Below are positions 18,208 through 24,463 of a stretch of 64,000 nt of DNA, one piece after another (position 1 is the stretch's first letter; each line of letters starts with the position of its first letter). The translations under genes and the position numbers were made by a program. The DNA is from Pseudomonas alkylphenolica. Its GTDB lineage: Bacteria > Pseudomonadota > Gammaproteobacteria > Pseudomonadales > Pseudomonadaceae. The stretch covers positions 2,349,501 to 2,413,500 of the forward strand of contig NZ_CP009048.1 in assembly GCF_000746525.1 (NCBI RefSeq). Direction: 5' to 3'. The notes under the pieces are model-generated. The model did no database searches. It saw only the letters and a list, made by a program, of their open reading frames with translations, and was not told the DNA's origin.

Positions 18208-18221
18208 TTGATATCAATCAA
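18208..18221 (+). promoter_or_regulatory. Perfect ANR/FNR box upstream of nrdD
   Basis: TTGATatcaATCAA matches the FNR/ANR consensus at all ten positions. It lies about 94 bp before the nrdD ATG, and a class II start would fall near 18256. This predicts anoxic induction of the nrdD-nrdG operon. Confidence 0.8.
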
Positions 18222-18308: not shown

Positions 18309-20321
18309 ATGCACAGCACGCTGATCAGGGTAGGGCACAACCAGCTACACAAGCGCGACGGCAGTCTGGTCGCTTTCGATGCCGACAAGATCCGCCAGGC
18401 GTTGATCGCTGCCGGCAAGGCCACCGGGGAGTACGCCGAGGCCGAGGCCGAAGGGTTGCTGGCAGCGGTGCTGGCGCACTTGGAGGGCTATTCGCAGCTG
18501 CACGTCGAACAGATCCAGGACCGGGTCGAGCGGGTGCTGATGGACGCCGGGCATTTCCTTTCGCTACGCGCCTATATCGTCTACCGCGAACAGCACGGGC
18601 GTTTGCGCCGCGACCGCAAGACGTTGGTCGAAGTGGCGACCTCGATGAACGAGTACCTCAACCGCGAAGACTGGCGGGTTCAGGCCAACGCCAACCAGGG
18701 TTACTCGCTGGGTGGGCTGGTGCTCAATGTCTCCGGCAAAGTCACCGCCAACTATTGGCTCGATGAGGTCTACAGCGAAGCCATTGGCCGCGCCCACCGC
18801 GAAGCCGACCTGCATGTGCATGACCTGGATATGCTCGCCGGCTACTGTGCCGGCTGGTCGCTGCGCACCCTGCTGCACGAAGGCCTCAATGGCGTACCCG
18901 GACGGGTCGAGGCCGGGCCACCCAAACACCTGAGCAGCGCCCTGGGGCAGATGGTCAATTTCCTTGGCACGTTGCAGAACGAGTGGGCCGGGGCCCAGGC
19001 CTTCAGTTCCTTCGACACCTACCTGGCGCCCTATGTGCGCAAGGACCGGCTGCCCTACGAAGAGGTCCGCCAGGCCATCCAGGAGTTCATCTACAACCTC
19101 AACGTGCCGTCGCGCTGGGGCACCCAGACACCCTTTACCAACCTGACCTTCGACTGGGTCTGCCCGGAAGATCTGCGCGAGCAGATCCCGGTGATCGGTG
19201 GAGAGGAAATGCCCTTCGCCTATGGTGAGCTGCAGGCCGAAATGGACCTGCTCAACCGCGCCTACATCGAAGTGATGCAGGCCGGCGATGCCAAGGGCCG
19301 GGTGTTCACCTTCCCGATCCCGACCTACAACATCACCCACGATTTCCCCTGGGACAGCGACAACGCCGAGCGCCTGTTCGAGATGACTGCGCGCTATGGC
19401 CTGCCGTATTTCCAGAACTTCCTCAACTCCGACATGCTGCCCAACCAGGTGCGCTCGATGTGCTGCCGCCTACAGCTGGATGTGCGCGAACTGCTCAAGC
19501 GCGGTGGCGGTCTGTTCGGTTCGGCGGAGCAGACGGGCTCGCTCGGTGTGGTGACCATCAACTGCGCACGCCTGGGCTATCTGTTCAAAGGTGACACCAG
19601 CGGTCTGCTGCAGCGCCTGGATACCTTGATGGAACTGGCCATGGAGAGTCTGGAGGTCAAGCGCAAGGTGATCCAGCACCACATGGACGCCGGTTTGTAC
19701 CCCTACACCAAACGCTACCTGGGCACCTTGCGCAATCACTTCTCCACCATTGGCGTTAATGGCCTGCATGAAATGTTGCGCAACTTCAGTGATGACCAGA
19801 TGGGCCTGCACACCGAGCAGGGGCGACGCTTTGCCTTGAACCTGCTGGACCATGTGCGTGCCACCCTGGTGCGCTTCCAGGAAGATACCGGGCACCTCTA
19901 CAACCTCGAGGCGACACCGGCTGAAGGCACCACCTACCGCTTCGCCAAGGAAGACCTCAAGCGCTATCCCGACATTCTCCAGGCCGGCTGCGCGCAGGCG
20001 CCGTACTACACCAACTCCTCGCAACTGCCGGTGGGTTACACCGATGACCCCTTCGAGGCGCTGGAGTTGCAGGACGAACTGCAGTGCAAGTACACCGGCG
20101 GTACGGTGCTGCACCTGTACATGGCAGAGCGGATTTCTTCGGCCCAGGCCTGCAAGCAACTGGTGCGCAAGGCCCTGGGACGCTTCCGCCTGCCTTACCT
20201 GACCATCACCCCGACCTTTTCCATCTGCCCGGTACATGGCTATCTGGATGGCGAACACGAGTTCTGCCCGAAATGCGACGAAGCCCTGTTGCTGGCGCAG
20301 CAGGTCGGCGCTGTTCACTGA
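18309..20321 (+). CDS. nrdD: Anaerobic ribonucleoside-triphosphate reductase, large part (NrdD without glycyl-radical tail)
   Basis: 670 residues. Class III reductase makes dNTPs without oxygen. An ATP-cone lies at about 10-100, followed by the ten-stranded barrel with VRSMCCRLQLD (candidate thiyl Cys region) and LFGSAEQTGSLGVVTINCARLGY. The C-terminus has a metal-site pattern (C640, H643, C653, C656). The protein then stops at H670 before any Gly-radical motif (RVCGYL in E. coli). That motif is instead in the next gene, in another frame 32 bp on. A frameshift reading is possible, but the downstream gene has its own ribosome site and start. Confidence 0.92.
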   Translation: MHSTLIRVGHNQLHKRDGSLVAFDADKIRQALIAAGKATGEYAEAEAEGLLAAVLAHLEGYSQLHVEQIQDRVERVLMDAGHFLSLRAYIVYREQHGRLRRDRKTLVEVATSMNEYLNREDWRVQANANQGYSLGGLVLNVSGKVTANYWLDEVYSEAIGRAHREADLHVHDLDMLAGYCAGWSLRTLLHEGLNGVPGRVEAGPPKHLSSALGQMVNFLGTLQNEWAGAQAFSSFDTYLAPYVRKDRLPYEEVRQAIQEFIYNLNVPSRWGTQTPFTNLTFDWVCPEDLREQIPVIGGEEMPFAYGELQAEMDLLNRAYIEVMQAGDAKGRVFTFPIPTYNITHDFPWDSDNAERLFEMTARYGLPYFQNFLNSDMLPNQVRSMCCRLQLDVRELLKRGGGLFGSAEQTGSLGVVTINCARLGYLFKGDTSGLLQRLDTLMELAMESLEVKRKVIQHHMDAGLYPYTKRYLGTLRNHFSTIGVNGLHEMLRNFSDDQMGLHTEQGRRFALNLLDHVRATLVRFQEDTGHLYNLEATPAEGTTYRFAKEDLKRYPDILQAGCAQAPYYTNSSQLPVGYTDDPFEALELQDELQCKYTGGTVLHLYMAERISSAQACKQLVRKALGRFRLPYLTITPTFSICPVHGYLDGEHEFCPKCDEALLLAQQVGAVH

Positions 20322-20353
20322 TTTCGAATTACCCAACCGCAAGGAGCTTCATC

Positions 20354-20521
20354 ATGACTGCACTGCAAACCCTGCCTGTGGCGCAACGCCAACGCTGCGA
20401 AGTCTGGACCCGGGTGATGGGCTATCACCGGCCGGTGTCGGCGTTCAACCCGGGCAAACAGTCCGAGCACCGCGAGCGCCAGCATTTCACTGAGGGTGCG
20501 GCAGCGGCCGGGCATCCATGA
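20354..20521 (+). CDS. Separate glycyl-radical domain of class III ribonucleotide reductase
   Basis: 55 residues. RVMGYHRPVSAFNPGKQSEH corresponds to the C-terminal glycyl-radical loop of NrdD (RVCGYLG...FNxGK in E. coli), with radical Gly predicted at residue 23. AAGGAGCTTCATC precedes the ATG at 20354, giving a strong Shine-Dalgarno site. The stop overlaps the nrdG start as ATGA, so translation is coupled to the activase. I infer that this peptide docks into the NrdD barrel and is activated by NrdG, making a two-chain reductase. Such split forms may already be known in other pseudomonads; I cannot check. Confidence 0.85.
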   Translation: MTALQTLPVAQRQRCEVWTRVMGYHRPVSAFNPGKQSEHRERQHFTEGAAAAGHP

Positions 20522-21213
20522 GTCGAGCACTACGGGTCGGGGGCATGGTGCCCCTGACCACCCTCGACTATCCGGGCAAGCTGGCCTGTGTGTTGTTTTG
20601 CCAGGGTTGCGCCTGGCGTTGCCGTTACTGTCACAACCCGCAATTGATCCCGCCGCGCGGCAGTCAGGAGCTTGATTGGAACCAGGTGCTGGCATTCCTC
20701 CAGCGCCGCCAGGGCCTGCTCGACGCGGTGGTGTTCAGTGGCGGCGAAGCAACCCTGCAGGACAGCTTGCCGGCGGCGATGGCCGAGGTCCGGCAGATGG
20801 GCTTTGCTGTTGGCCTGCACAGTGCCGGCATCAAACCTGAGGCGTTCGCCCGAGTGTTGCCGGGGGCCGATTGGGTCGGCTTCGACGTCAAGGCTCTGGC
20901 CGAGGAGTGTGCGCTGATTACTCGGGTAAAGGGCAGCGGGGTGGCCAACTGGCGCAGCCTGGAATTGTTGTTGGCCAGTGGTGTGGAGTATGAATGCCGT
21001 ACTACGGTACATTGGCATCTGATCGACCCGGAGCGCCTGCTTACGCTGGCACGGCGTTTGAGTGAACGCGGGGTCATACGTTTCGTGGTACAGATGGTAC
21101 GTACCACGCAGATGCTCGATGCAAGTTTGCCAAAGGTATCGATGCACACTGCGTTGCCGGTGCTGTGGGATGCGCTTGGCGATCTGTTTCCGGAGTTTGA
21201 AGTGCGCGGCTAG
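20518..21213 (+). CDS. nrdG: Anaerobic ribonucleotide reductase activase NrdG (radical SAM)
   Basis: 231 residues. It uses S-adenosylmethionine and a [4Fe-4S] cluster to create the glycyl radical. The cluster triad is C31/C35/C38 (CAWRCRYC), and VVFSGGEATLQ follows. The start overlaps the glycyl-radical gene by 4 bp. It closes the ANR-controlled nrd operon. Confidence 0.94.
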   Translation: MSRALRVGGMVPLTTLDYPGKLACVLFCQGCAWRCRYCHNPQLIPPRGSQELDWNQVLAFLQRRQGLLDAVVFSGGEATLQDSLPAAMAEVRQMGFAVGLHSAGIKPEAFARVLPGADWVGFDVKALAEECALITRVKGSGVANWRSLELLLASGVEYECRTTVHWHLIDPERLLTLARRLSERGVIRFVVQMVRTTQMLDASLPKVSMHTALPVLWDALGDLFPEFEVRG

Positions 21214-24449: not shown

Positions 24450-24463
24450 TTGATCTGCATCAA
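24450..24463. promoter_or_regulatory. Perfect ANR/FNR box between ftrA and the DUF3079 gene
   Basis: TTGATctgcATCAA matches the consensus at all ten positions. Its centre is about -40 for the leftward ftrA promoter and would also be near -41 for a rightward start around 24498 ahead of the DUF3079 gene. The leftward -10 is better, so ftrABCD is the more likely target. Confidence 0.75.

Follow-up and report, generated by a model that had tools for sequence, protein, structure and literature searches.

A class III ribonucleotide reductase with a separately encoded glycyl-radical peptide, very probably a two-chain enzyme, in Pseudomonas alkylphenolica and other Pseudomonadota

The 64,000-nucleotide stretch of the Pseudomonas alkylphenolica genome analyzed here (contig NZ_CP009048.1, positions 2,349,501 to 2,413,500; hereafter the window, with coordinates counted from its first base) belongs to a genome assembled as a single contig of 5.76 Mb and contains a class III ribonucleotide reductase locus in which the large catalytic chain and the glycyl-radical loop are encoded by two genes. 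The nrdD gene for the large chain (18309..20321, forward strand, ATG to TGA) encodes a 670-residue protein that combines an ATP cone (PF03477) with an NRDD catalytic domain aligning to positions 2-528 only of the 562 positions of PF13597 (578.3 bits); the protein also matches NF006126 with 1128.5 bits, and its nearest named relative comes from Pseudomonas wadenswilerensis (97%). The barrel contains Cys180 and Cys385/386, whose roles, such as that of the thiyl-radical cysteine, are presumed from the family, and a Cys/His metal site is located at residues 640-656. As stated in the original prediction, which was made from the sequence of the window, the chain ends shortly after this site and the glycyl-radical loop is absent.

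The loop is encoded by a small gene (20354..20521, forward strand, ATG to TGA) that contains RCEVWTRVMGYHRP and is separated from the nrdD stop by 32 nt with a frame offset of 2. Its 55-residue product matches positions 530-562 of PF13597 (E = 6.4e-9, 35.5 bits, cut-off 26.2), so that the two open reading frames (ORFs) tile a single family model. The codon of the radical glycine, Gly23, is at 20420-20422 and that of a conserved cysteine, Cys15, at 20396-20398. The small gene is preceded by its own ribosome-binding sequence, AAGGAG (20341..20346, forward strand), and the nrdD reading frame runs into further stops beyond its own TGA. The nrdG gene (20518..21213, forward strand), which codes for a 231-residue radical S-adenosylmethionine activase of the NrdG2 type (TIGR02495, E = 4.7e-66), starts inside the last bases of the small gene through an ATGA overlap; the separate frame, the ribosome site and this coupling had all been predicted. 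Upstream, 87 nt 5' of the nrdD start codon, lies the box TTGATATCAATCAA (18208..18221, forward strand), which is presumably recognized by a regulator of the Anr/Dnr/FNR type. The exact pattern TTGAT-N4-ATCAA occurs twice in the window compared to a mean of 0.04 in shuffled sequences; the second exact box is at 24450-24463. The regulator assignment draws on the control of nrdDG by Dnr described in PMC5645315.

The locus thus encodes the NRDD catalytic domain, the glycyl-radical loop and, alongside them, an NrdG2 activase, whereas the loop and the catalytic cysteine are on separate ORFs, here as in the other split loci that we collected. The placement of both in the same chain is a description of the characterized class III members rather than of their chemistry. 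For the comparison, 184 loci with an nrdD match were retrieved, of which the 166 that were distinct and reached the C-terminal end were kept: 143 are split (the window included), 13 are fused and 10 have no peptide on the locus, namely six distant NrdDs (22-25% identity), one contig end (L080), two remote cases (L114 and L173) and L048. In the 143 split loci, all of which were retrieved through nrdD rather than through the peptide, the frame relation between the two genes is 0, 1 or 2 in 37, 53 and 53 cases, respectively, the nrdD stop is TGA (112), TAA (24) or TAG (7), and the gap varies from -38 to 483 nt with a median of 32. The peptide starts with ATG in all but one of these loci (142/143), and a Shine-Dalgarno (SD)-like motif precedes this start in 139. 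Given that our start picker favours such motifs, ATGs inside nrdD provide a fair yardstick, and only 334 of 4041 of these (8%) are preceded by one. The peptide and nrdG overlap by 4 nt at 72 of the 140 split loci with computable spacing.

The Met-Gly and Arg-Pro of the loop are invariant across all the split loci. Among 64 of these (the window and L033-L101), the ratio of nonsynonymous to synonymous polymorphism (pN/pS) is 0.084 for the peptide core and 0.101 for the last 42 nrdD codons up to the CPxC motif, compared to 0.321 for the N-terminal extension of the peptide. By this measure, the core is under strong purifying selection and, as the loci were fetched by nrdD, these values together with the invariant loop residues indicate that the small ORF is more than a chance occurrence. 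The split peptides also share an arginine 11 residues before the radical glycine (143/143) and a cysteine 8 residues before it (142/143), both absent from most aligned fused enzymes; the fused outgroups contain KTEV, ETKV and similar sequences in this stretch, with the exception of L161. In NrdD itself, Cys419 (INCARL; codon at 19563-19565) is common to the split rows of the alignment, and the fused outgroups have leucine or methionine in this position. A link of the peptide Cys15 and NrdD Cys419 to thioredoxin-type turnover is conceivable.

A PF13597 search of 298 Pseudomonadaceae genomes detected nrdD in 112, and a search with the peptide alone detected the same 112 genomes (lists compared by eye). 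Of these, 110 are split, one is continuous (G296) and one is undecidable (G081, with only pieces at contig ends). The comparison of relatives for a conserved stop and start between nrdD and the small gene, which had been proposed along with the prediction, came out in its favour. Named records show the same arrangement beyond the pseudomonads, in other Gammaproteobacteria, in Betaproteobacteria and in Alphaproteobacteria. In a class sample of 369 genomes, NF006126 matches 33 (E <= 1e-100) and the peptide matches 33 (E <= 1e-4), with 32 in common, four of which are fused (G323, G407, G888 and G990); the two discordant genomes are G999 (75% complete), with nrdD only, and G817, where a partial peptide at a contig end adjoins a partial nrdD. 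Another class-level sample, of 142 genomes, contains the large-chain family in 14, including 10 split (one with the genes apart) and 4 fused cases. Named examples of the split come from Stutzerimonas, Halopseudomonas, Thioalkalivibrio, Sedimenticola and Methylococcaceae. In a plasmid collection, the peptide matches 29 records, four of which were read; the split is found on plasmids of Cupriavidus necator H16, Bradyrhizobium ottawaense and a Paracoccus, and an Actinomyces plasmid carries the fused form.

In two draft genomes the genes are not adjacent. In G597, nrdD is located at C4:22532-24490, and the peptide gene, followed by nrdG, at C4:33652-33786. In G1118, nrdD is on contig 41 and the peptide gene is alone on contig 16 (L187:3207-3581), as a longer ORF with a long N-terminal extension, in unrelated surroundings and with a terminator-like hairpin (identified by eye) on its 3' side; no nrdG match was found within 3 kb around it. 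Such separation argues against recoding as a general route to a single chain and favours a two-chain enzyme.

A quick maximum-likelihood tree was built from 86 of 165 rows, after removal of near-identical and seven distant rows and with the peptide columns left out. The fused or split character requires three changes on this tree, such as a single split with re-fusion on two occasions. The branch that joins 77 mostly split rows has a Shimodaira-Hasegawa-like approximate likelihood ratio test value (SH-aLRT) of 94, which is below the starred level, and the outgroup branches are long; a single old split in Pseudomonadota followed by a few re-fusions is favoured by the tree, short of proof. The fused L143 falls in an unresolved part of the tree and may be old or re-fused, and L178, a partial fused locus off the tree, retains the split-type ERQRC stretch. 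A close relative with a continuous nrdD, which had been named in advance as a potential refutation, does exist: L003, from G296, is 95% identical to the window NrdD. The tree, however, places L003 next to the window and nested within split relatives, as a derived re-fusion; its junction is 7 nt compared to 111 nt in the window, and it also lacks the ATP cone.

Taken together, these observations very probably reflect a class III ribonucleotide reductase that obligately consists of two chains, the 670-residue NrdD and the 55-residue glycyl-radical peptide. What we observe directly are two genes with separate translation signals and strong conservation that co-occur in the same 112 of 298 genomes and are apart in two; this two-chain reading had been put forward in the original prediction and is strongly supported by the comparison. 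The possibility that nrdD is a single gene broken here by a recent frameshift or a sequencing error might draw on the continuous L003, but this locus is nested among split relatives and differs at the junction and in the ATP cone; moreover, the genome is a single contig, the split is common to 143 distinct loci, nearly all with an ATG and a ribosome-site-like motif, and linker lengths and frames vary among relatives, which makes this explanation vanishingly improbable. Nearly as improbable is recoding, that is, a ribosomal frameshift or stop read-through that would yield one chain. In nine Pseudomonadaceae genomes the two parts do share a frame, interrupted by a single stop in eight and by four stops in one, but all three frames and all three stops are seen across a broad range of gaps, the nrdD frame of the window has more stops after its own, and the genes are non-adjacent in G597 and G1118. 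Selenocysteine-like decoding or stop read-through was likewise rejected given that both the stop codon and the frame vary.

A different kind of explanation is that NrdD has its own radical site, with the peptide as an optional spare part or regulator. The stand-alone copies of the peptide described below, from viral contigs and from a single mobile-looking module, would fit this idea, as would the Gly-Tyr that NrdD retains in its metal site (HGYL). Fused enzymes, however, carry the same HGY beside the true loop, on which ground we rejected it as the radical site, NrdD lacks the loop portion of PF13597, and the peptide and nrdD are found in the same 112 Pseudomonadaceae genomes; an optional peptide is accordingly improbable, if less so than recoding.

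For the docking, activation order, radical transfer and stoichiometry of the two chains, we infer a scheme in which NrdD would supply the ATP cone, the barrel, the thiyl-radical cysteine and the metal site, and the peptide would supply the radical-storing glycine. The peptide would most likely dock in the groove that is filled by the C-terminal loop in one-chain enzymes; once docked, it would acquire its glycyl radical by the action of NrdG with S-adenosylmethionine and pass the radical on to the NrdD cysteine in each turnover. As a hypothesis, the peptide could also be renewed after cleavage by oxygen. The predicted structural model aligns along PcNrdD (VIA-align), and the class III rows in Foldseek have root-mean-square deviations of 4 to 19. 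Several points weigh against the two-chain enzyme. The model was predicted as one covalent chain, and fused enzymes were part of the underlying alignment; docking is therefore favoured by construction. The prediction is poor at residues 387-407, just after the catalytic cysteines, in the linker at 670-685 and at both ends of the peptide. Furthermore, no protein-level evidence of the peptide was found, no peptide was found in the 551 bases past the nrdD stop in L048, and in the peptide of L029 (G111) the radical glycine is immediately followed by an in-frame TAG, which indicates a broken copy or an error in a metagenome-assembled genome.

Peptides of this family are also encoded on their own in viral contigs. 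A search with the window peptide yielded 127 confirmed stretches, 80 of which (L189-L268) were kept and read. No nrdD or nrdG was found by tblastn in the flanks of any of the 80 loci, where the flank is shorter than 1 kb on one side in 26 and at least 3.5 kb on both sides in 37. Each of 40 whole viral records (8.7-183 kb, possibly fragments) has a single match to the NRDD model, to the loop end (above the cut-off in 38), and the model detected a large chain in none of them. The predicted viral peptides, based on the 76 with an identified start, are 42-106 residues long apart from one of 144 residues, and 63 of the 80 loci have a start preceded by an SD-like motif, which the picker favours. Arginine at -11, asparagine at +9, lysine at +12, glutamate at +15 and arginine at +19 relative to the glycine are conserved in all 80 and the cysteine at -8 in 76; no weight attaches to the invariance of the TRVMGYHR core, a word contained in the search patterns. 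Pfam confirms three of the peptides. In the translated frames of L189, L200, L202, L209, L217, L228, L253 and L263, a cysteine-rich N-terminal extension is seen.

A PHROGs scan of selected neighbours (16 viral loci, 20 proteins, two of them peptides) identified terminase, portal, tail or endolysin proteins at eight loci (L189, L191, L193, L197, L217, L238, L254 and L259) and integrase, DNA-metabolism or QueD-like matches at seven; the one protein scanned at L205 has no PHROGs match, and Pfam gave no match for three neighbour proteins in L205 and L251. The peptide itself matches PHROG 4132 ('unknown function', 179 positions) at about 114-155, and this family may deserve a name. A comparable bacterial case is G932, which has a split nrdD and, elsewhere in the genome, a second peptide copy (L282:7803-7991, contig 3) flanked by RecT and SSB genes within a mobile-looking module that also contains a class II-like reductase barrel, YqaJ, DUF3150 and RadC. 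In the viral contigs, the window NrdD detects two loci and an alignment query detects 31 large-chain loci (18 fused, 5 split, 7 without a loop by pattern and 1 cut by a contig end), so that stand-alone peptides would be one strategy among others. In a collection of cultured phages, the window peptide matches only ANMV-1 at E <= 0.01, and two viral peptide queries (E <= 0.1) match three and two records (ANMV-1, one unannotated phage and one Oceanotoga phage). The absence of nrdD and nrdG from the flanks and of a large chain from the whole records suggests that an exchangeable radical subunit for use by a host enzyme may be part of the phage gene content. Tentatively, and with somewhat less than even confidence, we propose that phages and mobile elements which carry only the peptide would plug it into the host class III reductase during infection, where it would re-arm the oxygen-damaged enzyme or take the place of the host radical subunit, perhaps with a change in dATP control, raising the supply of deoxyribonucleoside triphosphates (dNTPs) without a reductase of their own.

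The closest known systems are the one-chain class III reductases of E. coli, phage T4, Thermotoga maritima and Prevotella copri, with which the window enzyme shares the barrel, the cysteine finger loop, the metal site, the glycyl loop, NrdG and, often, the ATP cone. In P. copri NrdD, a single C-terminal domain contains both the glycyl loop and the metal site (residues 676-739, Gly711; PMC11226230), whereas the window chain ends between the two. YfiD/GrcA and T4 Y06I similarly deliver a fresh glycyl-radical site to pyruvate formate-lyase on a small protein, and spare parts for other glycyl-radical enzymes are only 'tempting to speculate' about in the passages available (PMC8683613). The analogy with YfiD, drawn in the original prediction, holds for the small stand-alone glycyl-loop protein, which is found in the window and at the 80 viral loci. 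It fails for the large chain, in that YfiD rescues a cleaved enzyme with its own glycine, whereas NrdD has no replaceable loop of its own in the window and in 110 of the 112 Pseudomonadaceae genomes. It is the stand-alone phage copies that come closest to a spare-part system. Class II reductases are not known to store a protein radical. The NrdJa/NrdJb pair of Pseudomonas aeruginosa, according to excerpts of PMC4009431 and PMC4860495, is also a reductase in two consecutive genes but of this other class, with a different cofactor and a cut that separates no radical-bearing residue. Phage nrdD genes in more than one reading frame have been reported as well, in the part of PMC3653736 consulted as fragmentation or interruption by introns, inteins or homing endonucleases in single phages, whereas the window split is clean and conserved in bacteria. 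Database names for the small proteins (120 listed of 1984) include 'anaerobic ribonucleoside-triphosphate reductase', 'oxidoreductase' and 'hypothetical protein', many are nameless, and in NCBI relatives the small gene is annotated as nrdD. Annotation thus already records these proteins, but we have not found the split itself described: a full-text literature search returned no paper on a two-chain class III enzyme or the phage peptides, although older literature is incompletely covered and we do not claim that the arrangement is unpublished.

The split bears on earlier work on these enzymes. NrdDG is essential for complete denitrification in C. necator H16, as stated in the available part of PMC2864759, and the class III genes of this strain have the split arrangement. 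The same source lists NrdDG of strain CH34 as Rmet_5137 and Rmet_5139, with one number skipped; our plasmid search found a peptide match on a CH34 replicon, and the skipped number is consistent with an overlooked small gene. In P. aeruginosa, nrdDG in trans was enough to restore growth with normal cell shape, according to PMC5645315. We suggest that for expression of 'NrdDG' from pseudomonads, Cupriavidus and others, the small gene must be included. If the two-chain enzyme is real, a separate and replaceable radical subunit would open long-standing questions to direct tests, namely the means by which glycyl-radical enzymes withstand oxygen and the control that a class III reductase exerts over its radical-bearing part, and, if the proposed role of the viral peptides holds, phages would have a cheap route to act on the dNTP supply of their hosts.
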